A stretch of 30,567 bases of DNA from a virus, in IMG/VR virus record IMGVR_UViG_3300037165_000008, positions 1-30,567 of that record, one strand, 5' to 3'. The notes beneath the pieces are model-generated. The model did not search any database. It was given only the letters and a program-made list of their open reading frames with translations, and was not told the DNA's origin. Positions 5,363-26,024 of this stretch are shown one piece after another; position 1 is the first letter of the stretch; each line of letters opens with the position of its first letter. A program made the translations under genes and the position numbers.

Positions 5363-5556
5363 GACGCAAGGCGCGATCGCAGGCAGAAGTGGTCGCGCAG
5401 GCACGGGCCCGGGCGATCAAAGCCTTCGAGTTGCGCCAAGCCGGAAAGCTGCTCAAGCAGATCGGCGCCGAGCTCGGTGACGTGTCATACAGCCGCGCAC
5501 GCCAGCTTGTCGAGGCCGGCAAGCGGCTGTGCGCCAAGGGATTCCGCGCAGGCTGA
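5359..5556 (+). CDS. Small helix-turn-helix protein
   Basis: The 65-residue product starts at a GTG overlapping the previous stop (GTGA). It is basic at the N-terminus (RRKARSQAEVVAQARAR). Residues 25-58 read as a helix-turn-helix: LRQAGKLLKQIGAELG, a turn, then YSRARQLVEAGKRL. The 'LR..GK.L..IG..LGVS..RARQ' pattern is typical of sigma-region-4-like HTH modules in phage proteins. It probably binds DNA. It could regulate late genes or help the adjacent nuclease; neither is shown. It is too short to contain a second domain. Confidence 0.6.
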   Translation: MRRKARSQAEVVAQARARAIKAFELRQAGKLLKQIGAELGDVSYSRARQLVEAGKRLCAKGFRAG

Positions 5557-5560
5557 GCGT

Positions 5561-6094
5561 ATGGCAAATACCTCGACGCGGCGCCGCGGCGCGCACCTTG
5601 ATCGGTTGGCGTCCTTACCCGCCGAATTGCCAGGCTACCTGTTGCGGGCTCATGCCAGACTTCACCGGGAAATGAATCTCGATCCGCTCGCGGTGGCCGA
5701 AAAAACCCGGCTGTTGACCGGACTGTCCGAGAAGCGGGCACAATGGCTGGCGGACCGCGAAATCGGTCGGTCTCCGACGTGGGTTTACTTGATCCGCGAA
5801 GCCGGCGCCGACCCGGGCATCGTCAAGGCCGGGGTCACGCTGGACCCGCACGCGCGGTTGCGCGACCTTCAGGGCGGCAACCCGCGACAGCTCGAAGTGC
5901 TGTGTGCCATCCGTGTATCGACCGGCGTCATGGCGCGGCGAATCGAGGCCATGATCCTGACCGCAAACTTGCGATTGGTCGGGGAATGGGTGCGGATCGA
6001 AGGCGCCGACTTGCCAGCCTTGCTCACGACCGTAGCCGCCAAAGCAGGTGCGCAGGTCATTGATAGTTTTGTAGGTTCGTACCTACAGTCATAG
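5561..6094 (+). CDS. GIY-YIG nuclease, MUG113/T5orf172-like
   Basis: The 177-residue protein has a helical N-terminal region of about 70 residues and then a GIY-YIG-like domain. The first strand is WVYLI at 74-78, the second VKAGVT at 88-93, followed by ARLRDLQGGNP at 98-108, whose arginine matches the catalytic Arg position, and GEW at 141-143, whose Glu142 matches the metal-binding Glu. This order is that of the MUG113/T5orf172 branch, which is common in phages. It would cut DNA as a structure-specific or homing-type nuclease. The gene follows the helix-turn-helix gene by four bases, so the two may act together. An 18-base inverted repeat lies in its last codons. The domain call is firm; the target is unknown. 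Confidence 0.75.
   Translation: MANTSTRRRGAHLDRLASLPAELPGYLLRAHARLHREMNLDPLAVAEKTRLLTGLSEKRAQWLADREIGRSPTWVYLIREAGADPGIVKAGVTLDPHARLRDLQGGNPRQLEVLCAIRVSTGVMARRIEAMILTANLRLVGEWVRIEGADLPALLTTVAAKAGAQVIDSFVGSYLQS
6070..6087 (+). promoter_or_regulatory. Inverted repeat at end of nuclease gene
   Basis: TGTAGGT and ACCTACA are perfect inverted copies separated by TCGT. The element sits in the last codons of the nuclease gene and in an AT-richer patch that continues to about 6105, unlike the surrounding DNA. It could be an operator for a DNA-binding protein, a small RNA stem-loop, or a chance palindrome. No T-run follows, so it is not an intrinsic terminator. Confidence 0.4.
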
Positions 6095-12071: not shown

Positions 12072-12647
12072 ATGCCGGGCGCCAAATACGCATGGGGTAG
12101 AGTTGCCTGGGGCGATTGCCAACGCTGCGGGCTTCGATTCCTTTTGATGGATTTGGTGTTCGACGGTTACATGCCGGGCTTGCGGGTGTGCGTGGATTGC
12201 TACGATCCGCGCCATCCGCAGGAATTCCTGCAGGACGTGACCGACCCGGTGGCGCTGTGGAAGCCGGCGCCGGACAACGTGCAGTTTACCGCTCCGGTTC
12301 TGACCTGCTCGTCTGGCCTTGCCATCCCGGTCGTGTTGAACTGGACCGTCGCTGACTTCCAGGCCTACACCGTCGGCGGGTACACGGTGTACCGCGCGCC
12401 CCAGTCAACCGGCGTATTCGTGGCGCTGGCGACCTTCAAGAACACGGAGAACCTGTTCGCCAATGGCCAGCCGCCAATCGGCCAGACGCTCACGTATTCT
12501 GACGCCACGGCGGCGCATGCGACCGCGTACCTGTATTACGTCCAGGCATTCTCGCTGACCGACAGCACGGTGACGGGCCCGGCGCCGATCGATCCGCCGA
12601 TCCCGTACGTCGTGCCTTCCAACACCTTGACGATTACGCCCACATGA
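12072..12647 (+). CDS. Zinc-ribbon plus Fn3-like virion protein
   Basis: The 191-residue protein joins two modules. Residues 1-52 form a zinc ribbon with Cys16/Cys19 and Cys40/Cys43 (CQRCG ... CVDC), followed by DPRHPQEF, a phrase I know from short phage proteins near neck genes. Residues from about 75 on look like a fibronectin III domain with VVLNWTVADFQAYTVGGYTV and a closing YYVQAFSLTD strand. The ribbon probably anchors it to the neck, and the Fn3 domain could extend from it or bind sugars weakly. The stop overlaps the first adaptor gene as ATGA. The fusion order is visible; the neck role is inference. Confidence 0.6.
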   Translation: MPGAKYAWGRVAWGDCQRCGLRFLLMDLVFDGYMPGLRVCVDCYDPRHPQEFLQDVTDPVALWKPAPDNVQFTAPVLTCSSGLAIPVVLNWTVADFQAYTVGGYTVYRAPQSTGVFVALATFKNTENLFANGQPPIGQTLTYSDATAAHATAYLYYVQAFSLTDSTVTGPAPIDPPIPYVVPSNTLTITPT

Positions 12648-13981
12648 TCGGCTTTACCTATGCGCAGCTCCTTCAGGCCATGCAGGACTGGCCAGAGAAT
12701 CAAGGCGCCAATTACATCGGCAACATCCCGCGATTTGTCGAGCTGGGCGAGCTGCGCCTTGTGCGAGACCTCGACCTTGAGATATTCGACGTCACCGACA
12801 CGCTGTACCTTGCGGCAGGCCAGAACACGCTGGCGAAGCCACCTGAGCTGCTTCAGCTTCGCACCATGCGTTACGGCAACGTGCTGGATTTCGTCGCCGG
12901 AGACCCGTCATTCTCAGACGTCGTGATGCTGCTGCACATGGATGGCACGTCCGGCTCGAGCGCTTTCGTTGATTCGAGCGGTTACGGCTACGCCATGACC
13001 TCAAGCGGAGCTGCGATTACGGCTTTGAATGCCTACTTCGGTTCTGGCGCGGCGAATTTCACGGCGACGAACCAATATATTCAGAGCCCCTCGTTTGCGA
13101 TCAACGCGCCGCAGGATTTGAGCCAAGGGGATTTTACGGTCGAGTGCTGGATCAACCCGATGGCGCTCGCAAATGGCTATTTCTTGGGTGTGGGCACGAT
13201 TGCCAACTCCGACGGGATCTACCTCGAGGCGCTGTCGAACGGCACCATCACGGCGACCTTGTACACAGGCGCGGGCACGCAGACGCTCAATTCCAACACC
13301 GTGACCTATGCGGCGAATGCTTGGGCGCATGTGGCTTTCGTGTCCTACAACGGCGCCGGTTCCTTGTACATCAACGGTATTTTCGTCGGCACGGCGATGA
13401 ATTCCCAATTCCCGATCAGCATGGCTGGCAGCGTTTGGGTGGGCAACTCAAGCTCTGGTGGCACCGGGTTTGTGGGACTGGTGGATGAACTTCGGATCAC
13501 CGCCGGGCTTGCCCGCTACACGGCAAACTTCACGCCGCCGAGCGGACCGTTTCCCGGGTCCAGCGCGCCGATCATTACGACCGGGATGAAGGCCCCGACC
13601 TACAAACGCGCATTCGATTACCTGCGCAACTTCGGCAACAATCCAGCGGTAACAGGTCCGCCTCGTTATTACGCCGAACAGGACAGCAACACATGGCTTC
13701 TGTCGGCCTATGCCGATCAGAACTATGGAATCGTTGTGCGTTACCTCATGAGGCCGTTGTCGGTCGTCGTACTTGGTTCAAGCTGGCTTGCCGACCGATG
13801 CGGCGACCTTCTGTTGCTTACTTCCCTGATGGAGGCCGAGCATTACCTGAAGGGTGACGATCGCTTCGGGGACCTGGAACAGGACTACAAGATGAAGCTC
13901 CAGATCGCCAAGGCGGAGCTGCGCAACTCGACCCGCCAGGGTGACTATTCGCCCGTTAAATCAGCGGCGATGCCCGCATGA
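12644..13981 (+). CDS. Adaptor protein split by a LamG domain (copy A)
   Basis: The 445-residue protein has three parts. Residues 1-80 (GFTYAQLLQAMQDWPENQG, then an ELGELRLVRDLDLE helix) and residues 315-445 (GPPRYYAEQDSNTWLL, ending with RQGDYSPVK) together match short adaptor proteins that form the ring between portal/connector and nozzle. Between them, residues about 88-304 form a laminin-G/concanavalin-like domain with DVVMLLHMDG, FTVECW, AWAHVAF, LYINGIF and GLVDELRI. Removing it leaves about 225 residues, the usual size of the adaptor. The insert points outward if the fold is kept, and could bind glycans or protein. Start and stop are ATGA overlaps with both neighbours. Confidence 0.75.
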   Translation: MIGFTYAQLLQAMQDWPENQGANYIGNIPRFVELGELRLVRDLDLEIFDVTDTLYLAAGQNTLAKPPELLQLRTMRYGNVLDFVAGDPSFSDVVMLLHMDGTSGSSAFVDSSGYGYAMTSSGAAITALNAYFGSGAANFTATNQYIQSPSFAINAPQDLSQGDFTVECWINPMALANGYFLGVGTIANSDGIYLEALSNGTITATLYTGAGTQTLNSNTVTYAANAWAHVAFVSYNGAGSLYINGIFVGTAMNSQFPISMAGSVWVGNSSSGGTGFVGLVDELRITAGLARYTANFTPPSGPFPGSSAPIITTGMKAPTYKRAFDYLRNFGNNPAVTGPPRYYAEQDSNTWLLSAYADQNYGIVVRYLMRPLSVVVLGSSWLADRCGDLLLLTSLMEAEHYLKGDDRFGDLEQDYKMKLQIAKAELRNSTRQGDYSPVKSAAMPA

Positions 13982-15369
13982 AAGGCTTCACTTACGCGCA
14001 GTTATATCAGGCCCTGCAGGATTGGCCGGTTGCTGCATCGGCAAATTACTTGTCGAACATCAATCGGTATATCGAGCTCGGTGAGTTGCGCCTCGTCAAA
14101 GACCTCAACCTGGAGTTGTTTGACCAGACCAATATCCAAGCGCTGTTGGCTGGCACAAACGTCGCGATTAAGCCGCCAGAATTGTTGTCGGTGCGTTCGA
14201 TGTGGGGGGCTATCGCGCAGACCTACATTCCGCCTGACCAGAAATACACGGACGTCGTGCTGTTGCTCAATTTCGATGGAAATAACGGCCAGACCGCGAT
14301 TACCGATTCCTCGCCCTTTCCTCTTGCCATCACGCGCACCGGAAACGCAGCCTTGACCACGACCGCGCCAAAATTCGGCAGCGCTTGCGGTAATTTCGTA
14401 GACGCCAATAACGGCGGTTGGACGGCACCTATTGTTGCCACGCAAGGCTTGGACCTGCACAAGACGGCATTCACGGTCGAATGCTGGTTAAAGACAACTG
14501 CCGGTGTCATCAACGACATTTGGAGCGACAACAGCAATCCTTTTACTGGGCTGGATGTGCTGCGCTCTTATATGCAGAGCAACGGAGTTCCCTTCATGCA
14601 GGTGATTTATTCAGGCGGCGGTGGAGGAGGCTCACAAGGCCCGAACGCTTCGCCTATCAATGACGGAAACTGGCACCACGTCGTTTTTTCCGCTTCCTCA
14701 AGTCAATCAGGCGTCGCCGTAGACGGCGTCTGGGGAGGTTTGTCCTCGTATGCTTTCGATACCGTTCAGTCGATCGGCCCCTATTTCTCGATAGGTTTCG
14801 ATGAAGGAAATTCTCAAATCCACAATAACCACGGGTGGATCGGAGAGATGGACGAATTTCGCGTCACGCGCGGCATCGTGCGCTACCCGCTGGGGACCAA
14901 TTTCACGCCACCGACAGTGGCGTTTTCGCAGTCCGGGTCTCAAGGTACGATCATTCTTGGGGAGGCCTTCCCGGTGGTCAAACGTAGTGCAGATTTTGTG
15001 CAGAATTTCACCGACGATCCGACCATTACCGGGCCTCCTCGCTACTACGCTGAACTTGATTCAGGAACATGGCTGGTCGCACCTACGACCGACCAGATAT
15101 ACGGTCTTGAGTGCCGGTACATCATTCGTCCCCAATCGGTCGTTACGGCAAGCAACACCTGGCTAAGCGATCGGTGTGGAGACCTGATGTTCCTGTGCGC
15201 TTTGATGGAAGCCGAGCATTACCTCAAAGCGGACGACAGATTCGCGGACCTGTCCGGGGATTACCAGACCAAGCTCGCCGCCGCACGCACGGAATTGCGC
15301 AACAGCATCCGCCAGGGTGATTACTCGCCCGTCAAAGCCGCCGCAGCGCCGGCACAAGGACAGCCATGA
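13978..15369 (+). CDS. Adaptor protein split by a LamG domain (copy B)
   Basis: This 463-residue paralogue of copy A has the same layout. Its first 80 residues and last 130 residues are roughly 60% identical to copy A by eye, sharing GFTYAQL, ELGELRLV, KPPELL, TGPPRYYAE, DRCGDL, LMEAEHYLK and RQGDYSPVK. The LamG insert (about residues 88-318) is far more diverged, but keeps DVVLLLNFDG, FTVECWL, NWHHVVF, GWIGEMDEFRVT and NFTPP. It also has a run of six glycines near residue 217 not found in copy A. The pair must come from a duplication, after which the inserts changed quickly. Hetero-oligomer formation in one ring or alternative use is possible. Confidence 0.75.
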   Translation: MKGFTYAQLYQALQDWPVAASANYLSNINRYIELGELRLVKDLNLELFDQTNIQALLAGTNVAIKPPELLSVRSMWGAIAQTYIPPDQKYTDVVLLLNFDGNNGQTAITDSSPFPLAITRTGNAALTTTAPKFGSACGNFVDANNGGWTAPIVATQGLDLHKTAFTVECWLKTTAGVINDIWSDNSNPFTGLDVLRSYMQSNGVPFMQVIYSGGGGGGSQGPNASPINDGNWHHVVFSASSSQSGVAVDGVWGGLSSYAFDTVQSIGPYFSIGFDEGNSQIHNNHGWIGEMDEFRVTRGIVRYPLGTNFTPPTVAFSQSGSQGTIILGEAFPVVKRSADFVQNFTDDPTITGPPRYYAELDSGTWLVAPTTDQIYGLECRYIIRPQSVVTASNTWLSDRCGDLMFLCALMEAEHYLKADDRFADLSGDYQTKLAAARTELRNSIRQGDYSPVKAAAAPAQGQP

Positions 15370-17021
15370 GCGATACTTTCTCGACCTCCCTTGCGATCCG
15401 GCTGCCGGCGACAGGGGCGTACAACAACACCTGGGGCGCGGTACTCAATGCCAACGCGCTCCAGCTTCTCGATACCGCGATCGCCGGCTTGAACCAAGTC
15501 AGCATCGGCAGCTCTATCGCGTACTCCATGCCGGCCATGAGCCAAGGATCGGATACCCCATCCAGGTACTTCTGCCTGCAGTTCTCGGGTACGCCGGCCT
15601 CCGCGGTGACGGTGACGCTGCCCTCGAGCGTTGTCTCGAAGTTCTACCTGATCGACAACCTGGCGACCGGCCAGACGCTCACCTTCACGTACGTCGGATC
15701 GACGAATACCGTCACGGTGAAGGTTGGCGAGAAGCACCTGATCTGGTGTGACGGCGCGAACGTCTGGGATTGCACGACGGCAGGGTCGACGCTGCTCAGC
15801 GGCATCGCCGCGGTGAACTTCGCGCGCGTGAGCCGCACGGCAGCGGAAATCACTGCCAGCACGATTGTCAAGAACGTCTATTCGGACGTTTCCAACGTCA
15901 ATCCGTTTCATGCCCTGACGTTGCCGGGCGGAAGCACGATTACCCTTGATCCGACGACTGGCGATGTGCAGGCCATAGCCCTGACCGGGAATTACATTTT
16001 CGGCGTGCCGGCCAATGCGGTCGACGGCGCCAAGATCGAACTGTACGTGGCGCAGGACTCGACGGGAGGGCGCACGGCGACGTGGAATTCCGTATTCGTG
16101 TTTGAAAGCGGCATTGTCCCGACGCTGACCGCGGCTCCCGGCAGCGTTGACCGTTTCGATATGCGCTACGCCTCCGCCCTGTCGAAATGGCTTGTTACGC
16201 CTTTCTTGAATTACACGACGCCGGCTGGCGCCACTTACCCGCTGACCATCTCAAGCAACGTCACGAACTGGCAGCTCGCCCCGCTACTGGGCGCGACGGG
16301 CGCCGTGTCAGTCGTCGTTACCGTGAATCAGGGCGTCGTCGTCTCCTCGGTAAGAGCCAGCGATCCGGCAATGGATTTGTCCGGGCTGCCGTCAGGATCG
16401 ACGGTCACGCTGGTCAATAACGGCTACATCATCGGGTGCGGTGGTCGCGGCGGCAGCGGCGCGGCAAGCGCCTATAACGGGACTTCCGGCGTTGTCATTC
16501 AGGGCGGAAAGGGTCGCCCCGGCGGAACGGCAATCGTCGGCCCGGGCATCGGCCGCTCGTTCAACTGCACGAACACAAACGGTCATATATGGGGCGGCGG
16601 GGGCGGCGGTGGTGGCGGTAGCAGCAACACGCCGTTCGCAAACGGGGAGGCCCTTGCAGGCGGCGGCGGTGGCGGAGCTGGCGGTGGCGTCGGCGGTCCT
16701 GCGGGGCTGCTGGGCAACATTTATACGCTGTACCCCTATGCTACGGAACCGACGCTTTCTGGCGACGGCACGGCCGGCCCCAACGGGACTGGCGGCAGCG
16801 GCGGCGTAGGCACTACTGCAGGGTCTGGCTCACCGACAGTGGGAGTCGCCGGAAACGGCGGTAATTATGGGGCCGCAGGTGGTGCGGGAACCAATGCGAC
16901 TCCAAGCGGTTGCTATGGAACGGCAGGGATTGGCGGTATCGCAGGCAACGCGATCGCGCTTGGTGGCGGTTCGGTAGTTCCTGCCTCGCCGGCCGGTAGT
17001 GTGCTGGGCATCATCTCGTGA
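15366..17021 (+). CDS. Tail fibre with glycine-rich receptor-binding tip
   Basis: The 551-residue protein starts with a pattern shared by many phage fibre proteins (SLAIRLPATGAYNNTWG, ALQLLDTAIAG), then a beta domain with YLIDNLATGQT and IWCDGANVWDC, a middle beta region, and a C-terminal tip from about residue 350. The tip opens with VTLVNNGYIIGCGGRGGSG and is a long glycine-rich zone with runs such as GGGGGGGGG and GGGGGGAGGG. This resembles the polyglycine type II helix sandwich of gp38-type adhesins of T-even-like phages, in which loops between Gly stretches bind the receptor. It is an unusual place, between adaptor and nozzle genes. AAGGA at 15356-15360 and an ATGA overlap define the start. 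Confidence 0.75.
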   Translation: MSDTFSTSLAIRLPATGAYNNTWGAVLNANALQLLDTAIAGLNQVSIGSSIAYSMPAMSQGSDTPSRYFCLQFSGTPASAVTVTLPSSVVSKFYLIDNLATGQTLTFTYVGSTNTVTVKVGEKHLIWCDGANVWDCTTAGSTLLSGIAAVNFARVSRTAAEITASTIVKNVYSDVSNVNPFHALTLPGGSTITLDPTTGDVQAIALTGNYIFGVPANAVDGAKIELYVAQDSTGGRTATWNSVFVFESGIVPTLTAAPGSVDRFDMRYASALSKWLVTPFLNYTTPAGATYPLTISSNVTNWQLAPLLGATGAVSVVVTVNQGVVVSSVRASDPAMDLSGLPSGSTVTLVNNGYIIGCGGRGGSGAASAYNGTSGVVIQGGKGRPGGTAIVGPGIGRSFNCTNTNGHIWGGGGGGGGGSSNTPFANGEALAGGGGGGAGGGVGGPAGLLGNIYTLYPYATEPTLSGDGTAGPNGTGGSGGVGTTAGSGSPTVGVAGNGGNYGAAGGAGTNATPSGCYGTAGIGGIAGNAIALGGGSVVPASPAGSVLGIIS

Positions 17022-19003
17022 GTACCCCGGGCGACCAGATGGTTCCGGCGAGTACCCTTACCGGGTACACGACGACCAATCCGCCCAAAAGTCCGCGGGC
17101 GCATAACTTCAGTGACATGGCCTTCGCGCCGGGGGTCGCATCGAACGCGCCTGGCCGAACCCTGACGAGTCGCTGGGTCGCCTCGAACCGCGTGCGTTGG
17201 CACAAGGGGCTGCCGGAGAAAATCGGCGGCTGGCTCGCACAGCCGCTGACGGGTGCGAACAACGGCGTCATAATCGGCACCGTGCGCGCGGCTTGCGACT
17301 GGGCATCCCTAGATGGCCAGTATTGGATCGCGGTGGCGACCGAGCAAAAGCTGTACATCATCAACAATTTGACGCTGTACGACATTACGCCGATCCGGCG
17401 CAGCTTCAACACGACGAACGCTTTCTCGCTGGTCAATGGCAGCAACGTCGTGACCATAACCGATCCCAATAATTTCGCCAACGTGGGCGACTGGATGGTC
17501 GTCAATGGCCCGATCACCGGATATAACGTCACGCTGAACGGCGATTACCAGATCCAGTCGGTCATCGACCCGAACACCTACACGATCCTTGCCAGCACAA
17601 ATGCGAACCAGACGATAAACAACGTCGGCGGTGTGGTGACGCTGCAATACGAAGTCTCGATCGGATTGGCCACCAACGGATTTCTGTACGGTTACGGGAC
17701 CGGGCTTTATGGCGAAGGGACGTACGGCACGCCGCGCTCGTTTCCGAACGGTGTCGCGGCCAAAATGCGCACCTGGTCGCTGTCGAACTGGGGCCAGGAC
17801 CTTGTCGCCAGCTACAACAACGGCGAAATCTACTGGTGGCAATGGAACACAGGGCCGCTTTCGCGCGCAGCCCTGATCGCGAATGCGCCGACCGATGTGC
17901 AGCGGATTATCGTGGACGCAGACCGCCAGTTTCTGATCGCGGTGGGCGCGTCCGACATTACCAGCAACGCCGACCCCATGAACGTGCGCTGGTGCAGCGA
18001 ATCCAATCTGAACGACTGGGTGCCTGTTGTGTTGCCTGTCGCCAATACAGCGGGTGGCCAGCGGCTCAACTTCGGCTCGCGCATGGTCACGGCGCTGCAG
18101 TCTCGCGGCCAGAATCTTCTCTGGTCGGACACGCAGCTTTATCAGATGCAATTCATCGGGTATCCCGATTACTTCGGGTTCGTTGAGCTCGGGAAGTGTT
18201 CGATCGTAGGCCCGAACGCGGCGGTTGACGTCAATGGCGTCGCCTTCATGATGTGTTTCGATAATTTCTACATGTACGACGGCACGCTGCGCATTCTGCC
18301 CTGCGATATGTGGGAGACGGTGTTCGGGTTTCCCGGTGAGCCTGGCACCGGCCTTGATCGCTCGCAGGCCGAAATGGTGTATTGCTCAAGTTTTCAGTCG
18401 AAATCTGAAGTGACGTGGTTCTACCCGGCGCAAAACAGCGACGTCATGCAATACATTACGTTCAATTACGACAGCAATTGCTGGTATGGCGGCACGATGC
18501 CGCGCACTTGCTACAAGGACGTCACTCCGGCGCTGGCTGGGTACGTTGAGTATCCCTACGCTTTCAACGGCGGAAATTTCTATCAGCACGAAATTGGCTA
18601 CGATGAAGTCGAGCCCTCGAGCGTCAAGAACCCGATGTACTGGTTCCTGCAGAGCTGGGACATTGGCCAGCAATCTGACAAGCCGGTCCTCATCAACAGC
18701 GTAATTCCGGACTTCCAGCGGCTCAGGAATGGCTGTCAGTTCAGTTGGCTTTGCAAGGATTTCCCGCGGGACGCGGCTTACACGCAAGTCGGTCCGTTTA
18801 TCATCACGCCGGACGCCAGCAAGTACGACGCGCGAGCGTCAGGAACCCAGATCGCGTTGCTCCTCGAGGCCGCGTCCGTCGCCAGCGCCGTCGTCGTGGG
18901 CCAGGACATGCGCATGGGTATCTGGCAGGTTCAGGTAGGACCGCACGGCAAGCGCCGCGGCGCCGGCAACATGGGATCGCCGATCAACACGAGCAACCCG
19001 TGA
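17018..19003 (+). CDS. Putative tail nozzle/hub protein
   Basis: The 661-residue protein starts with a GTG in a GTGA overlap. It has a polar leader, then SRWVASNRVRWHKGLPEKIG near residue 50, a phrase typical of the long beta-propeller-like proteins that form the distal tail tube of podovirus-like phages (P22 gp10-like). The middle has repeats of beta strands with Trp/Asn/Gly motifs such as YNNGEIYWWQWN and DADRQFLIAVGA, consistent with a propeller. A segment at about residues 130-205 (NGSNVVTITDPNNF) looks like an inserted beta domain. It would form the hexameric nozzle below the adaptor ring. Size and context support this; individual blades are not resolved by eye. Confidence 0.65.
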   Translation: MSTPGDQMVPASTLTGYTTTNPPKSPRAHNFSDMAFAPGVASNAPGRTLTSRWVASNRVRWHKGLPEKIGGWLAQPLTGANNGVIIGTVRAACDWASLDGQYWIAVATEQKLYIINNLTLYDITPIRRSFNTTNAFSLVNGSNVVTITDPNNFANVGDWMVVNGPITGYNVTLNGDYQIQSVIDPNTYTILASTNANQTINNVGGVVTLQYEVSIGLATNGFLYGYGTGLYGEGTYGTPRSFPNGVAAKMRTWSLSNWGQDLVASYNNGEIYWWQWNTGPLSRAALIANAPTDVQRIIVDADRQFLIAVGASDITSNADPMNVRWCSESNLNDWVPVVLPVANTAGGQRLNFGSRMVTALQSRGQNLLWSDTQLYQMQFIGYPDYFGFVELGKCSIVGPNAAVDVNGVAFMMCFDNFYMYDGTLRILPCDMWETVFGFPGEPGTGLDRSQAEMVYCSSFQSKSEVTWFYPAQNSDVMQYITFNYDSNCWYGGTMPRTCYKDVTPALAGYVEYPYAFNGGNFYQHEIGYDEVEPSSVKNPMYWFLQSWDIGQQSDKPVLINSVIPDFQRLRNGCQFSWLCKDFPRDAAYTQVGPFIITPDASKYDARASGTQIALLLEAASVASAVVVGQDMRMGIWQVQVGPHGKRRGAGNMGSPINTSNP

Positions 19004-19578
19004 CGGTCAACGTCACCGACATTCAGTTCAACGGCGACGCCCTCACCGACGCCAAGCTACGCCGCTTCGTGCAGGACGTGGTAGCGGCGGAGCGCGCGAT
19101 CAACCTGCTGATCTCGCAGGTCTCGACGTTGCAGACGGAAGTCGCCGCCAGCGGCGGAACCGAAGTTTTGGCCACGACAACCAGCTTGGGCCCAAACTTC
19201 ACCGTCTCCGGCCTGACCGCCGGCATGGTGTTGAAGGCGCTGTCTGCGACCAGCGCAGCTTTCGCAAAGCTCAAAACGACCGAACTGGGCGATACGAACA
19301 TTGATTCGCCTGTCAACGGTCAGGTCATGACGTACGTCAATGGCCAATGGGTCAATGAAGTGCCCCCGGGCGCGGGTGCGCCGACCATGGGCGAGAACAT
19401 CGGTTCGGGTGTCGGGGTGTACGCCGGCATTGCCGGCGGCGCGCTGGCCTTCAAAAGCATTACTGGCGATGGAACCACGATCGGAGTCAACTTTACCGCT
19501 GACACGATCACCCTGTCCTACATCGGGGGCGGTCTGACCTATGCACAAGCCTCCGCCATCACGAGCATCCGAATTTGA
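19000..19578 (+). CDS. Short tail-fibre-like protein
   Basis: The 192-residue product starts with a GTG in a GTGA overlap with the nozzle gene. Residues 10-50 form an amphipathic helix (DAKLRRFVQDVVAAERAINL), probably a trimeric coiled coil. The rest is beta-structured with QVMTYVNGQWVNEVPPG, a fibre repeat phrase, and GSGVGVYAGIAGGALAFKSI near residue 145, a motif repeated in many phage fibres. It ends in a TTGA overlap with the collagen-like gene, so the two could be a two-component fibre with this protein as the attachment base. Function by composition and context. Confidence 0.55.
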   Translation: MTVNVTDIQFNGDALTDAKLRRFVQDVVAAERAINLLISQVSTLQTEVAASGGTEVLATTTSLGPNFTVSGLTAGMVLKALSATSAAFAKLKTTELGDTNIDSPVNGQVMTYVNGQWVNEVPPGAGAPTMGENIGSGVGVYAGIAGGALAFKSITGDGTTIGVNFTADTITLSYIGGGLTYAQASAITSIRI

Positions 19579-22316
19579 TCCTCCTGACCCAAATCACCGA
19601 TTACCTCGAGATGAGCCTGGCGGCGAATCTATCGACGGACTGGACGAGTTCCTGGGTCGATATGAGCTACTCCGCGAACACGTTCATCCCCGGGAGCGCG
19701 GAAGGGAACACGGCGGTCTCGGGGCTGACGACGCTGGTGCCAGCGCCGGCCGGAGCGGTGCAGCGCCAGTTGAAATACCTGTCGATCACGAACCGGGATC
19801 TGGTCGGCTCCCAGACGGTGACGGTCGATAAGAATTCGAGCGGGGCATTCAATCTGCTGGGTCAGATTACGCTGCCGCCCGGGTATTCGCTGCAGTACGT
19901 GGACTCGCGCGGTTTTTACGTCCTCAGCGCTTCAGGCCAGGAGCTGTTTGTTGGAGCCACCGGGGCTACCGGTGCGACCGGCTCACCGGGGCCACCGGGC
20001 GTCACGCTGTTCCTGGATCCGGATCAGCCGGATGACCCGGCCTCAATCCCCGGACAGGCGGGATCTGCGGGCAATCCCGGAGCCACCGGGCCCGCCGGCT
20101 CAACCGGGCAACCGGGCGTCGACGGTATCGACGGCGAAGAAGGCATGCCGATTCCGGGCACGCCGGGAGCCCCGGGAAGCACCGGCGCCACGGGCGCGCA
20201 GGGTGTAGCGACCTTCCTCGAGGGCGAACAGGGGCCAGACGGCGATCTGGGGCCGCCCGGCGGCGCAGGTCCGCCAGGCCCTCAAGGAACGACCGGCGGA
20301 CAGGGGCCGGTTGGGCCAGCCATTTTCCTCGAAGCGGATCCGGGCGAAGAAGCGCAGATGACCCCGGGCGTCCCTGGACCGCAAGGCAACCCAGGGGTCA
20401 ATGGCATCGTAGGCGTCAATGGCGCCCCAGGAGCCGATGGCGACGTTGGCGAGGATGGCATGCCCATTCCCGGCCCGATCGGCGCTCAAGGCGCTACAGG
20501 CGGAACCGGGGCGCAGGGGCCGGCTGGGCCGGCGGTGTTCCTTGAGGCTGACCCCGGCGAAGAAGCCATGATGACGCCTGGTGTTGCTGGTCCGCAGGGC
20601 AACCCCGGCTCGAATGGCATCGTAGGCGTCAACGGCGCCCCAGGAGACGCTGGCGATCCGGGCGAGGACGGTATGCCCATCCCGGGGCCGATCGGCGCTC
20701 AGGGCAGCACAGGCGCTCAGGGACCCCCGGGGCCCGCCACCTTCCTCGATGCGGACGTGGTCGAACCGGACTTGTTGCTGGTTCCCGGCCCGCCAGGCGC
20801 TCAAGGCGCTACAGGCGGAACCGGGGCGCAGGGGCCGACTGGGCCAGGGGATCCGCTGGGCTGGCACGAGCTGTCGTGGGACGACTGGTTTCCGCAGGGT
20901 CCGGGGAATCGCGTTGGAAGTGATTGGACTATTGACGGTGCGCTGAACGTAGCGGGGAGCTCCACGCTTGCCGCCCCTGTCAGAATTACGGCCACGTCCG
21001 GCTTTGCGTCATTGACGTCGACAGGAGCCGCTGGGTCTTATGCCGGCGTATTTAACGGCAGCAGCGTATCGGGTTCCTCTAGCGGCCTAATCGTCAAAGC
21101 TGGCTTTGTCGCTGGAGACACCGCTTTCGCCGTGCAAAATCAGGCGGGCACGACCCAGCTTTTCGCGCTTACGGGCGTCGGCAGCTTTGGGCTCGGAAAT
21201 AACGGCACCACGTACCTGATTTCAGGCTCAGCCGCCGGCAACGTCAACATCAACCAGCCAGCCTCTGGAATCGCGCTCACCGTTCAGGCTTTAAGTGGAC
21301 AGCAAGGCCTTACGGTCACGGGAGCGAATGGCACCGGCATTCAGGTGGACGGAACGGGCCCGGTCCTCGGAGTTCTGGACACCAACGCAAATGCAGTGTT
21401 TGCCACTCTGCAGGCGTTGAACACGGGATGGTCTTTGAATTTCTCCTGGAACACGTCGCCTCCTGCTGGAAGCGCGCAAATTCAGATCAACGGGCAACAA
21501 GTAATAACTCTGCTGCAAACAAGCGGACTGACCAACGGCGTATCTTTGTCAGCGCCTACCAACACGGCGGCAGCCACGACGCTCACGGTTAATGGCAGCG
21601 CGGTCGCCGGATCTATTGGCGTCACCATCAATGGCGGCTTTACCGGAGCTGGCACGACGTCGTTGCTGAATATCAGCGATGTGAACAACACCAACGGCGT
21701 CAACATCAAGATGACCGGCGGGGGTGCCGCCCCGAGCAAGTATTTGCGCGTCAGTTCCACCGGAAATTTTCAGATATTTAACAACGCCTACACGGCAAGT
21801 CTGTTGACTATTGGCGATTTGGGGAATCTGTCGATTAATGGTTTGCCTGCCGTGGATACGAACAACCATGGCAACGTCAATGCCTATGGGTATTTCATCA
21901 ACGGCAACCCGATTTCCACGGGCGCCGAAGGGTCCATGTTGGCCGCGGAATACGATCGCGACGACGAGGGATGGCATGTAATCACGCCGGGGCCGGCCGC
22001 AGCCGCTGCAGGATTTTCGCAGGAAGTGGTGCTTACGAGTGGCAGTGCGATCACGGTCACTGCGGCGCAAATCCAAGCCGCGAACGCTCTGTTGCTGATC
22101 CTCAACAGCAACTCCGGCGTCGCCAAAGTAGTCACCCTGCCAGCTTCAACCGGATCGCTTTCTAGGATCTGCGTAATCGACGGCTTTGGGGATGCTGGTA
22201 CGAACAACATCACTTTCGCTGGCGCCACAGTATTCGGCGTCAACCTGATTTACACCAACAAGGGACAGCTATGGCTCACCGACACGAAAACATTGGGATG
22301 GGTCGCGGGTATCTGA
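19575..22316 (+). CDS. Collagen-like tail fibre, 913 residues
   Basis: Three zones are visible. Residues 1-125 form a beta domain (DWTSSWVDMSYSAN, SGQELFVG). Residues about 126-427 are collagen-like Gly-X-Y repeats (GATGATGSPGPPG, GAPGSTGATGAQG). Five non-collagen interruptions break them, each opening with FL(D/E): TLFLDPDQPDDP, ATFLEGEQGPDG, AIFLEADPGEEA, AVFLEADPGEEA and ATFLDADVVEPD. Residues about 430-913 form a long beta-rich shaft with Thr/Gly/Val strands ending in IYTNKGQLWLTDT. It is probably a trimeric fibre. The TTG start (TTGA overlap) is chosen because no SD supports the ATG at 19611; this is uncertain. A 213-base unit duplication lies inside the collagen part. Confidence 0.75.
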   Translation: MILLTQITDYLEMSLAANLSTDWTSSWVDMSYSANTFIPGSAEGNTAVSGLTTLVPAPAGAVQRQLKYLSITNRDLVGSQTVTVDKNSSGAFNLLGQITLPPGYSLQYVDSRGFYVLSASGQELFVGATGATGATGSPGPPGVTLFLDPDQPDDPASIPGQAGSAGNPGATGPAGSTGQPGVDGIDGEEGMPIPGTPGAPGSTGATGAQGVATFLEGEQGPDGDLGPPGGAGPPGPQGTTGGQGPVGPAIFLEADPGEEAQMTPGVPGPQGNPGVNGIVGVNGAPGADGDVGEDGMPIPGPIGAQGATGGTGAQGPAGPAVFLEADPGEEAMMTPGVAGPQGNPGSNGIVGVNGAPGDAGDPGEDGMPIPGPIGAQGSTGAQGPPGPATFLDADVVEPDLLLVPGPPGAQGATGGTGAQGPTGPGDPLGWHELSWDDWFPQGPGNRVGSDWTIDGALNVAGSSTLAAPVRITATSGFASLTSTGAAGSYAGVFNGSSVSGSSSGLIVKAGFVAGDTAFAVQNQAGTTQLFALTGVGSFGLGNNGTTYLISGSAAGNVNINQPASGIALTVQALSGQQGLTVTGANGTGIQVDGTGPVLGVLDTNANAVFATLQALNTGWSLNFSWNTSPPAGSAQIQINGQQVITLLQTSGLTNGVSLSAPTNTAAATTLTVNGSAVAGSIGVTINGGFTGAGTTSLLNISDVNNTNGVNIKMTGGGAAPSKYLRVSSTGNFQIFNNAYTASLLTIGDLGNLSINGLPAVDTNNHGNVNAYGYFINGNPISTGAEGSMLAAEYDRDDEGWHVITPGPAAAAAGFSQEVVLTSGSAITVTAAQIQAANALLLILNSNSGVAKVVTLPASTGSLSRICVIDGFGDAGTNNITFAGATVFGVNLIYTNKGQLWLTDTKTLGWVAGI
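20400..20646 (+). repeat. Direct repeat in collagen part, 213-base period
   Basis: The segment starting AATGGCATCGTAGGCGTCAA occurs at 20400-20433 and again at 20613-20646, with one base difference in 34. The surrounding protein is also repeated (LEADPGEEA ... GIVGVNGAPG ... GEDGMPIPG), so the unit is a 71-residue cassette. The near identity in DNA shows the duplication is recent or maintained by recombination. Confidence 0.75.
20481..20837 (+). repeat. 42-base exact direct repeat in collagen part
   Basis: The 42 bases at 20481-20522 are repeated exactly at 20796-20837, 315 bases or 105 codons later, coding for GAQGATGGTGAQGP. They flank the second 71-residue cassette. Exact copies such as these let the fibre lengthen or shorten by homologous recombination without loss of frame. 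Confidence 0.75.
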
Positions 22317-24403
22317 CGCGCCTCGCGGCGCTTCTGCTTTTGGTCGCGGGCACCGTCCACGGCCAGGCGCTCATCCCGCCGGGCTCCGCCGGTCAGCCGC
22401 TCTACAACCTGAACGGCGTGCAGATCGGCGCGTACACGACCCAGATCAGCGCCTTCTCGACCTACGTCAATTCCGACAATCAGGCGCTGAAAGCCTTCTA
22501 CGCCTGCAACCCCGCGACCACCATTTGCCGGATCATCGACAACGCGGACTCAGAACACACCTGCTGGCTGGGTGCGACGAGCTGCGCTTTCGGGCCGCAG
22601 CACGAATCGAACCTGTGGCAACCGAGCTTGATGAACCTTTTGACGAAGCGCGGGTATCCACTTTACTCGACCGGGCTTATCGGGCCGATCGGCACGGTCT
22701 CGACCTCGACCCTGTTCAATAACGGCATCCTGCCAGGCATTACCTGTTCCGGCACCGTCACGCAGGTCTCGCTGTCCGGGGTAGGTCCGCAGCAGGCAAC
22801 CGGCGCGCTGACGGGCGGCGGGACGCTCCAGATGGCCTCGGGCGCCGTGTGTACGGTTGCCGTATCCACCTTCGTCGCGACCCCTGGCGGCACGGCCGGT
22901 GCCTTCAACCGCTTTGAAGTGTACTGCGCGATCAACTCCACCACGGGCACCATGACCGTGACCATCTCCGGGCAAACGGCTTCCACCGCCTGCACCGGAA
23001 CCAATGCGTCCCCGTTGGCGCAGGCGTTTACCGTCACAAACTCTGCCGGCACAACCGCCCTCACCGTGGCGATCACTTGCACCACCGGCACGTGTAACTT
23101 GGGGGGTTGGGAGGAAATCTACACTACCAGCAATGTCGGCTACGCGATCGACGGCTTTGAGGCGACGGGCGGCGCGAACAGCTACTGGCTCGGCGCCGCG
23201 GCCGGCAATGCTGCGTACCTGAAACTCACCAGCGGGACCGTCGCGCTTCTCGACATTGCGATCGGTATCAACGATGCGGCTGGCTCGATCGCTTCGGCCA
23301 CCGTCAACACGAACATCGGCACCTTCATCGCCAACTGGCCCTCGGCAAGCGTCCTCATCTGGTCGTCTTTCCCATACACCGGCACGGGTTCCGCTGGGTA
23401 TCCAGCGATCCAGCAGGGCGAACAGCAATACGCCCTCACCAACAAGTACGATTTCTTGAACACGGCCGACAACGTGCCCGTCAACACCAGCGTCGCCTAC
23501 TGGGCGGGGCTGATGAACAGCGACACGACGCATCCCACGGATACCAGCGCGGCTTCTAACTTCGCGCAGTGGTGGCAGCACATTTTCGGCAGCACGCCGC
23601 AAGTGGTATCGACCATGGGTGTTTACCAGAACTGCTACACCAACGGCTGCGTGGCCGCAGTCGATGGGCTCGACACTACATCCACCATGGACAGTTACGT
23701 CTGCTATGTAACCTCGATGGCCTGGTGCGGCGGGCGGCGTTTCGTCGCAGCTTCCGGTGCCACCTTTCAGTCGATCGTGCAGGACGGGGTAGTCGGCACC
23801 GCGGTTACGGGCATCGGTGCTAACGGCGGGGTAGCCTCGGCGGGCTCTTGGGGCATCGGCTCGAACACTACCGCCGGCACGCAGACCCCGACCCTCACGA
23901 ATCTGTCGATAGTGGTTGACGCCACCAATCACATCGTCCAGCACCCCTACAACACCGTCGTCCTGACCGCGGCCTACACCAACGCGACGACCACGTTCAG
24001 CACGGTCCAGGATGCCACCCCGCACGTTCTAGCGTTTGCGGTCAACGCCAACCAGACGATCGTTGTTAGATGCAAACTCATGTACCAAGCGAGCGCCACC
24101 ACGGACGGGTTGATCGTGCAATGGACCGGACCGGCGAGCCCCACGGGGTTCCAAGCGGACATGCAGTATGCGACCAGCTACGCCGCGGCGATCAACAGCG
24201 ATTTCGTCGCCCCGGTCACGGCGCTCTCGACCCAGATACCGACCACGGGCGTCGCGGTAAATGCGGCGACCACAAACTACATGGCAATTGTCCACGCGAC
24301 TCTCATCAACGGCGCGAACGCCGGAACCTTGACGCTTCAGGCGAAGGGAGTCGGTACGGGCACGCTCACCATTGGAATCGGCAGCTTTTGCCACGCGGAA
24401 TGA
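22271..24403 (+). CDS. SGNH/GDSL hydrolase with inserted beta domain
   Basis: The 710-residue protein has a signal-peptide-like N-terminus (LAALLLLVAGTVHGQA) and an SGNH-type hydrolase whose motifs lie far apart: block I as DNADSEHTC near residue 90 with the candidate serine in ADSEH, block III as IGINDA near residue 332 (G-x-N-D), and block V as SDTTHPTD near residue 417 (D-x-x-H). The gap of about 240 residues between blocks I and III holds a beta-rich insert at about 145-290. The C-terminal 200 residues are beta-structured. Phage G7C gp63.1 is a known SGNH tail esterase with an inserted module that deacetylates O-antigen, so a surface-glycan esterase is a plausible role. The ATG at 22271 has AAGGGA upstream; the one at 22298 has none. 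Confidence 0.65.
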   Translation: MAHRHENIGMGRGYLTRLAALLLLVAGTVHGQALIPPGSAGQPLYNLNGVQIGAYTTQISAFSTYVNSDNQALKAFYACNPATTICRIIDNADSEHTCWLGATSCAFGPQHESNLWQPSLMNLLTKRGYPLYSTGLIGPIGTVSTSTLFNNGILPGITCSGTVTQVSLSGVGPQQATGALTGGGTLQMASGAVCTVAVSTFVATPGGTAGAFNRFEVYCAINSTTGTMTVTISGQTASTACTGTNASPLAQAFTVTNSAGTTALTVAITCTTGTCNLGGWEEIYTTSNVGYAIDGFEATGGANSYWLGAAAGNAAYLKLTSGTVALLDIAIGINDAAGSIASATVNTNIGTFIANWPSASVLIWSSFPYTGTGSAGYPAIQQGEQQYALTNKYDFLNTADNVPVNTSVAYWAGLMNSDTTHPTDTSAASNFAQWWQHIFGSTPQVVSTMGVYQNCYTNGCVAAVDGLDTTSTMDSYVCYVTSMAWCGGRRFVAASGATFQSIVQDGVVGTAVTGIGANGGVASAGSWGIGSNTTAGTQTPTLTNLSIVVDATNHIVQHPYNTVVLTAAYTNATTTFSTVQDATPHVLAFAVNANQTIVVRCKLMYQASATTDGLIVQWTGPASPTGFQADMQYATSYAAAINSDFVAPVTALSTQIPTTGVAVNAATTNYMAIVHATLINGANAGTLTLQAKGVGTGTLTIGIGSFCHAE

Positions 24404-24537: not shown

Positions 24538-24918
24538 ATGGCCAGTAACAAGATTCTCAACGCGCCTCCGGTGGCGCTCACCCTTACGCTGACAACGAAT
24601 ATCTTCAACGTCGGCGGCTCGGTCCTGACGACCGCGCAGACCGGCTTCACGTTCTCGGGCCTGTATGCGGTCATCCGCCATGCTCGCGTCCTGAACAAGA
24701 CCGGCACGGCGGCGACCGTATCGCTCTGGAAGGGCGCTTCCGCCGGCAACGTGGCCGGCACGGAATGGAACTGGCAGGCGACGAGCGTCGCAGCCAATTC
24801 CTTCCTGGACGAATACGGCATCGCGCGTTTCGACACGGCGGACTACCTTGTGGGCGGCGCAGGCACGGTCACGGCCCTGACGCTGATGCTCGAGGGCGAA
24901 ATCGGGGTCGCAGGCTAA
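24538..24918 (+). CDS. Small tail-associated beta protein
   Basis: The 126-residue protein is beta-rich. It has the pattern HARVLNKTGTAATVSLWKGA, then GTEWNWQATSVAANSFLDEY and a late LVGGAGTVTALTLMLEGEI. Such small proteins are widespread next to fibre genes in phages and probably form one jelly-roll-like or Ig-like domain in the tail. AGGAG with a six-base spacer sets the start. Role is inferred from family pattern and place. Confidence 0.6.
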   Translation: MASNKILNAPPVALTLTLTTNIFNVGGSVLTTAQTGFTFSGLYAVIRHARVLNKTGTAATVSLWKGASAGNVAGTEWNWQATSVAANSFLDEYGIARFDTADYLVGGAGTVTALTLMLEGEIGVAG

Positions 24919-24927
24919 GAGCCGGCG

Positions 24928-25431
24928 ATGCTTCGATTCATGGTCATTGGTGCGCCTAGGTCGGGAACGGCCTGGGCAGCCAACTGGCTCACGTCAGACG
25001 GATACCTGTGCCTGCACGATCCTCTGTGGGACCACCACTACGGGGACCTCGATCAGTTCAGCGATCCAAAGACGGGGATTTCCTGCACCGGCATCGCCTA
25101 CTTTCCGGATTGGGTCAACCAGCATCCGGCCAGGAAGGTGATTCTGCATCGCCCGCGGCATGAAGTTCAGGCGAGTCTTGATGCGCTGGGCCTGCCCCCA
25201 TGTCCTCAGAAGCTGTTCGATAACCTGTGGCAGATCCGGGGGCTGCACGTTGAATGGCGCAGCCTGTTCACGCTCGAGGCTGCTGGAATCCACAAGCACC
25301 TGCGGCTCGGGTATTTCGACCCGATCAGATGGAAGATGCTCAAGGACATGCGCATCACGGCCAACTACCAGAAGCGCAAACAGAATCCGGAAGTTTGGGC
25401 GCGCATCCAAGCCGAAGGAGCCCTGCCGTGA
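24928..25431 (+). CDS. Sulfotransferase-like P-loop protein
   Basis: The 167-residue protein has the two PAPS-binding signatures of sulfotransferases. The 5'-phosphosulfate loop is GAPRSGTAWAANWL at residues 8-21. The 3'-phosphate site is LHRPRHEVQAS at 73-83, where Arg75 and Ser83 are eight residues apart as in human SULT1A1 (Arg130, Ser138). It would transfer sulfate from PAPS to a hydroxyl on protein, sugar or lipid. It is shorter than most cellular enzymes (about 250-300 residues) and has only part of the acceptor-binding half, but short phage homologues exist. Its stop overlaps the oxygenase start as GTGA, so the two are translated together. No strong SD precedes the ATG. Substrate unknown. 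Confidence 0.65.
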   Translation: MLRFMVIGAPRSGTAWAANWLTSDGYLCLHDPLWDHHYGDLDQFSDPKTGISCTGIAYFPDWVNQHPARKVILHRPRHEVQASLDALGLPPCPQKLFDNLWQIRGLHVEWRSLFTLEAAGIHKHLRLGYFDPIRWKMLKDMRITANYQKRKQNPEVWARIQAEGALP

Positions 25432-26024
25432 TTCACTACCTCGAGCCAGGCCGCAAAGCCAGAATGACGCCCATCACCGAGCGCCCCATCGATGTTTCCG
25501 CCGTGGTTGGCGAGTTAGATGCGCACCCGGAGCTGTGGAACCAGTTCACTTTGCGGACCAAGGAATACGGCGGCGACAAGGGGCCGCATCGGGCGATCGA
25601 CGACATTTGGGTCCGCTACAACGATTGGGTCAACTTCGACCCGGAGAACCCCAAGAAATTCTTCGAGGAACATGACTCGTCATGGTATCCGGCCTATGCG
25701 AAACTGCCGGCGCTCCGGCCGCTGATCTTCGGGTTGATGCAGGTGGTTGAGGGCGAGCGCCTTGGAGGCGTTTTGATTACCCGCATCCCAGCGGGCAGCA
25801 GCGTCGCACCCCACAAGGATCCGGGGTGGCACGCGGGTTACTACCGTAAATTTGCTGTGCAGCTCCGGGGCGGACCGGATCAGTACTTCTGTTTCGAGGG
25901 CGAATCCATGATCGCTGAAGCGGGAGAAGTGTACGAGTTCGATAACTCGGAGACGCACTGGGTCAATAACGACAGCGATCGCGAGCGCATCACGTTGATC
26001 GTGTGCATTCGCGCAGGAGCGTAA
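25428..26024 (+). CDS. 2-oxoglutarate/Fe(II) oxygenase, Asp-hydroxylase-like
   Basis: The 198-residue protein starts at a GTG with GAAGGAG upstream. It carries the iron facial triad of the 2OG-Fe(II) oxygenase superfamily: His129 and Asp131 in APHKDPG and His177 in SETHWVNN, followed by Arg185/Arg187 in DRERITLIV, in the place of the 2OG-binding arginine. Its pattern (RIPAGSSVAPHKDPG, YEFDNSETHWVNN) is closest to the aspartyl/asparaginyl beta-hydroxylase branch. Such enzymes hydroxylate protein side chains using O2 and 2-oxoglutarate. Coupling to the sulfotransferase gene suggests a two-step modification, hydroxylation then sulfation; the collagen-like fibre is one possible substrate. The chemistry is well supported by residues, the substrate is not. 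Confidence 0.75.
   Translation: MIHYLEPGRKARMTPITERPIDVSAVVGELDAHPELWNQFTLRTKEYGGDKGPHRAIDDIWVRYNDWVNFDPENPKKFFEEHDSSWYPAYAKLPALRPLIFGLMQVVEGERLGGVLITRIPAGSSVAPHKDPGWHAGYYRKFAVQLRGGPDQYFCFEGESMIAEAGEVYEFDNSETHWVNNDSDRERITLIVCIRAGA

Follow-up and report, generated by a model that had tools for sequence, protein, structure and literature searches.

A predicted sulfotransferase and a predicted 2OG-Fe(II) oxygenase form a recurrent gene pair in a variable slot beside the phage DNA-ejection gene

Gene layout of the locus

The 30,567-base virus record analysed here (referred to in its entirety as the window) raises the question of why two small genes, predicted to encode a sulfotransferase (ST) and an oxygenase (OX), overlap each other between tail and ejection genes, and whether the two enzymes might act on a common substrate. 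ST and OX are both intact open reading frames, and lie in the following surroundings:

17018–19003: structural gene, matching a virion structural family
19575–22316: fibre/tail gene, with tail-fibre family matches
24538–24918, + strand: small gene 5′ of the pair (126 aa), with homologues at three other loci (L094, L095 and L118)
24928–25431, + strand: ST, 167 aa, ATG at 24928 to TGA at 25431; phrog_10855 family, predicted minimal sulfotransferase
25428–26024, + strand: OX, 198 aa, GTG at 25428 to TAA at 26024; Asp_Arg_Hydrox, PF05118
26027–27028, + strand: EJ, DNA-ejection (internal virion) protein; phrog_4287, E 4.9e-9; directly 3′ of OX

The initial annotation had described a four-base overlap of ST and OX within the tail region, before the ejection genes, and both descriptions hold. 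The two reading frames share the bases GTGA, and a GAAGGAG motif lies 7 nt 5′ of the OX GTG; that start codon and the ensuing V-I-H-Y-L are kept in the nearest relative, L094. Fibre/tail genes stand 5′ of the small gene at 24538–24918, which is followed by the pair and then by EJ. Comparison of ST with its L094 counterpart (69% identity) gave a dN of 0.24 with saturated dS, indicating purifying selection on ST. A search of Pfam and PHROGs profiles found no family match for the product of the small gene.

ST is a predicted minimal sulfotransferase

ST belongs over its entire length to phrog_10855 (E 3.4e-39), a family that PHROGs labels ‘hydrolase’. The initial annotation had instead read it as a PAPS-type sulfotransferase with both phosphate sites, and had left in doubt whether so short a protein would possess a catalytic base. 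The features that bear on this reading are:

24949–24975, + strand: 5′-phosphosulfate loop, residues 8–16 (GAPRSGTAW), in which the Walker-A lysine is absent
25009–25023, + strand: CLHDP motif, residues 28–32
25015–25017, + strand: H30, candidate catalytic base
25150–25176, + strand: 3′-phosphate site, R75…S83, spacing 8 (Arg-x7-Ser)

Across an alignment of 57 family members, P10, R11, W16, C28, H30 and R75 are present in all 57 and S12, T14 and S83 in 55 each, while R134 is nearly invariant. A PRSGT loop without the Walker-A lysine, combined with Arg-x7-Ser, is the PAPS signature of the sulfotransferase superfamily, and ST has both elements, and probably the core fold, in common with that superfamily (PF13469/PF00685), including its tyrosylprotein and bacterial members. 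The invariance of H30 makes it a candidate for the catalytic base. The same invariant residues are shared with the phrog_10855 proteins of cultured phages (for example Pseudomonas phages PaMx25, NP1 and PSASB_03 and Variovorax phage VPv64), to whose family members ST is 39–43% identical.

The ST protein by itself gave no trusted Pfam match, and pairwise phmmer against the PDB returned irrelevant matches only. At E≤1, 43 of the 57 family members matched Sulfotransfer_3 and 29 matched Sulfotransfer_1; these matches are weak (best Sulfotransfer_3 E 5e-6), and the single Sulfotransfer_3 score compared with its Pfam cut-off fell below it. The ST model is confident (pLDDT 95.3, pTM 0.91), and its top structural neighbours are sulfotransferases, including tyrosylprotein sulfotransferases, with Z scores of up to 9.9 over 143–145 residues; Foldseek E values with the same model were never better than 3e-3. 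At 167 residues the protein is shorter than the solved sulfotransferase chains (195–330 aa), and it lacks most of their usual substrate-binding additions.

Might ST instead be a P-loop hydrolase or kinase, as the deposited annotations would have it? Both phrog_10855 and GenBank name a hydrolase, and shikimate kinases come within 1 Z of the top sulfotransferases, so that the fold alone is not decisive and the residues must decide. The missing Walker-A lysine and the conserved Arg-x7-Ser site both speak for a sulfotransferase, the Sulfotransfer profile matches contrast with one weak guanylate kinase match in the family, and the kinases align over only ~122 residues as against ~145 for the sulfotransferases. 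We therefore regard a hydrolase or kinase as very improbable. The family profiles, invariant residues and confident model together support the prediction that ST is a minimal PAPS-type sulfotransferase, and likewise support re-annotation of phrog_10855 from ‘hydrolase’ to a putative minimal sulfotransferase. When genome contigs were searched with the family alignment, four MAG contigs matched, few enough that ST looks phage-specific.

OX is a predicted 2OG-Fe(II) oxygenase

OX matches the PF05118 profile (Asp_Arg_Hydrox) with 34.2 bits, above the curated cut-off of 22.6. The HxD…H…R set ascribed to it in the initial annotation is found at the following positions, with counts taken over an alignment of 46 OX proteins for the iron ligands:

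25812–25820, + strand: iron ligands H129-x-D131, present in 46/46
25956–25958, + strand: third iron ligand H177, present in 46/46
25986–25988, + strand: R187, 2OG-binding arginine ten residues past H177, present in 26/26 ST-paired and 8/15 cupin-paired OX

The OX model is likewise confident (pLDDT 94.4) and adopts a double-stranded beta-helix fold. Its matches include 7v4m (Z 15.5 over 155 aa), L-proline cis-4-hydroxylase 4p7w (Z 14.4 over 168 aa) and AspH (Z 14.1), and its structural neighbours are non-heme hydroxylases of amino acids, of proteins and of an antibiotic pathway. PF05118, which takes in AspH, L-proline cis-4-hydroxylase and the lipid A hydroxylase LpxO, has in common with OX the HxD…H motif, the arginine at H+10 and the fold (Z 14–15.5); unlike these relatives, OX is phage-borne and is without a TPR or membrane part. 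The profile match, the invariant residues and the confident model support the prediction that OX is a 2OG-Fe(II) oxygenase of this family.

The pair recurs in many phages

By its own criterion the initial annotation would have been refuted had the pair proved absent from other genomes; in fact it is widespread. We drew two independent samples from IMG/VR, one with OX and one with the ST alignment, and clustered each at 90%. ST lies nearby in 11 of 29 OX clusters from the first sample, and OX nearby in 13 of 45 ST clusters from the second. The pair was found in more than 20 ST clusters altogether, which argues that the pairing is not due to chance; it occurs in both gene orders, and its junctions mostly overlap, by 1–20 bases. 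Across many contigs it lies directly 5′ of the ejection gene, and it is also present on a MAG contig (L177) binned as Microbispora. In a phylogeny of 56 ST proteins, adjacency to OX was gained or lost ~10 times, at least five of these changes being forced by well-supported branches, so the pair has formed or broken up repeatedly. To judge from these sequence comparisons, the pair is neither a chance arrangement nor an accident of one lineage.

The association is at the same time far from obligate. An adjoining OX is lacking in 32 of 55 ST clusters, and it is likewise common for OX to stand without ST, a cupin accompanying OX as often as ST does; since each enzyme also occurs without its partner, neither needs the other. 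In the four cultured-phage records examined (PSASB_03, VPv64, PaMx25 and a Stenotrophomonas phage), the phrog_10855 gene has no adjoining OX and sits near replication, nucleotide or lysis genes rather than tail genes, which counts against a tail-associated module.

Phage-borne sulfotransferases and 2OG oxygenases have each been reported as auxiliary metabolic genes of unclear function (PMC10580990; PMC8290583), and the function of the phage sulfotransferases is expressly stated to be unclear (PMC10580990). The initial annotation knew of no described phage system that pairs the two enzymes, and in the open-access literature that we searched no paper describes such a pair. Given its recurrence in many unrelated environmental phages, we conclude that the pair is real and a putative modification module, so far undescribed in that literature.

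A slot of varying content next to the ejection gene

The initial annotation had overlooked that the genes just 5′ of the ejection gene vary between phages, ST and OX being one of several fillings of a common slot. An ejection gene stands in the same place in most OX loci and marks this slot, which holds interchangeable small enzymes (cupin, OX, ST and GNAT) in the arrangements ST OX, OX ST, GNAT ST OX, OX cupin, cupin OX, OX GNAT and ST alone. The cultured Pseudomonas fluorescens phage PfAn1 carries OX together with a GNAT. Of ten further phages whose ejection gene falls in this family, all of them cultured or complete, eight have a cupin of the phrog_12032 type directly 5′ of the ejection gene, making the cupin the commonest filling in known phages. 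This cupin, named ‘short tail fiber protein’ in PHROGs, occupies the slot of OX, belongs to the same beta-helix fold class and is sometimes fused or adjacent to OX; it differs from OX in having no 2OG signature, and is never found together with ST. No OX cluster contained both ST and a cupin with the same OX, an exclusivity that is suggestive, its probability being uncorrected for phylogeny.

One example of fusion is found at L041 4659–5540 and in relatives from a freshwater clade, where cupin and OX form one ORF of 294 aa. Slot cupins (L021, L039, L046, L078, L081 and others) retain a conserved H-x-H…H pattern and may be enzymes rather than the fibres that their name implies.

The company of cupins raises the alternative that OX is itself a virion component, its double-stranded beta-helix having a structural or binding function. 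Slot cupins are annotated as tail fibre or adhesin in phrog_12032 and phrog_24280 and also in cultured phages, and the 2OG-binding arginine is gone in 7 of 15 cupin-paired OX. The iron ligands are nevertheless invariant, the complete H/D/H/R set is found in all 26 ST-paired OX, and the cupins themselves keep a metal-type pattern. We consider a purely structural role for OX to be quite improbable.

A broader alternative holds that the site is an accessory-gene slot, tolerant of small genes, in which ST, OX, cupin and GNAT are independent enzymes with host-surface or metabolite targets and no shared substrate, their adjacency being an effect of the slot. The many combinations and orders fit such a site, as does the occurrence of ST among tail-tip, lysis and replication genes. 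HNH genes, too, are found in the slot, which is what a site prone to insertions would be expected to show. Set against this are the stop/start overlaps in most pairs, the full catalytic set in all ST-paired OX, the separation of cupin and ST, and the cupin–OX fusion, which argue for non-random partners. On balance this explanation seems doubtful, if still a serious contender.

A comparable arrangement is known from T7, whose gene 13 (PF11090; GNATs by internal virion proteins) is a small gene in the same position, 5′ of the first internal virion gene. A published proposal makes a GNAT in this place the counterpart of gp13 and suggests that it takes part in virion morphogenesis (PMC6775973). 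The resemblance is one of position only: homology to T7 gp13 was rejected for ST and OX, neither of which matched PF11090 at E≤1, whereas T7 gp13 itself matched at 1e-47.

Several other genes were observed in or around the slot. At L108 an ORF (5406–6005) directly 5′ of an intact ST begins ST-like and continues HNH-like, apparently through invasion or partial duplication of an ST gene. An ORF annotated ‘sulfotransferase family 2’ (L191 182–712, Phage CBW1004C-Prop1) lies in a head-tail module, four genes 5′ of the ejection gene. Members of phrog_21390 lie beside or near ST at L120 (6506–6979), L131 (6507–6962), L125 and L143.

A putative two-step modification and its candidate substrates

How might the pair act? 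We propose that ST and OX, encoded where tail and ejection genes meet, make up a late modification module with coupled translation and a shared substrate that is most likely a virion protein, and put the probability of this reading as a whole at roughly one in three. OX would use Fe(II), 2-oxoglutarate and O2 to hydroxylate a substrate, and ST would transfer sulfate from host PAPS to a hydroxyl of that substrate. Genomic position points to a tail or ejection protein from the same operon as the likeliest substrate, and in other phages a cupin or GNAT acetyltransferase would take the place of ST in a modular slot. The sequences and models best support the first part of this reading, namely that the two genes encode a late, coupled pair of probably active enzymes. 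Hydroxylation followed by sulfation of one substrate, as the initial annotation had suggested, is plausible, being chemically sensible and in keeping with the coupling of the genes; its two enzymes are supported, while strict coupling of the two steps is no more than plausible given the many ST clusters without an adjoining OX.

The modified molecule could instead belong to the host: lipid A, O-antigen, a peptidoglycan precursor or a free amino acid might be hydroxylated and then sulfated towards the end of infection, for instance so as to prevent re-adsorption or to block defence. PF05118 does include LpxO and hydroxylases of free proline, and known bacterial sulfotransferases use glycans and small molecules. 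Neither OX nor ST has an apparent membrane segment, however, and their constant neighbour is a virion gene rather than a host-takeover gene, so that a host target appears unlikely to us.

Further candidate substrates lie within the window. The fibre encoded at 19575–22316 is collagen-like (Pfam Collagen, E 1.5e-22), its G-X-Y blocks being interrupted. As a general substrate it is not supported, because within flanks of 4–6 kb such repeats do not track the pair: they occur near 2 of 37 ST+OX loci, 0 of 65 OX-only loci and 1 of 69 ST-only loci. Each of the three loci with repeats carries a small gene like that at 24538–24918, whose product is a possible substrate of the pair.

A predicted phage sulfotransferase thereby gains a recurrent overlapping partner and a fixed address beside a DNA-ejection gene, together with a few candidate substrates and the proposed re-annotation of phrog_10855. 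Were the virion the target, the pair would be a system by which phage particles are enzymatically hydroxylated and sulfated. The boldest version, in which many environmental podovirus-like phages hydroxylate and then sulfate their own tail or ejection proteins, with sulfation, acetylation and the cupin reaction as interchangeable second steps, strikes us as improbable in its full extent.

Other observations

One of the loci collected (L092, PQ492659.1) comes from the 39-kb Limnohabitans phage DC33, which is classified under Inoviridae although its genes are ordered as in a tailed phage. Within the window, 12644–13981 and 13978–15369 encode two SU10-adaptor-like head-tail proteins in tandem, both interrupted in the middle by a laminin-G/concanavalin-type domain. 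The large protein after the fibre (22271–24403) has a weak, below-cut-off match to GDSL/SGNH hydrolases (E 0.053), and is perhaps a deacetylating tailspike.
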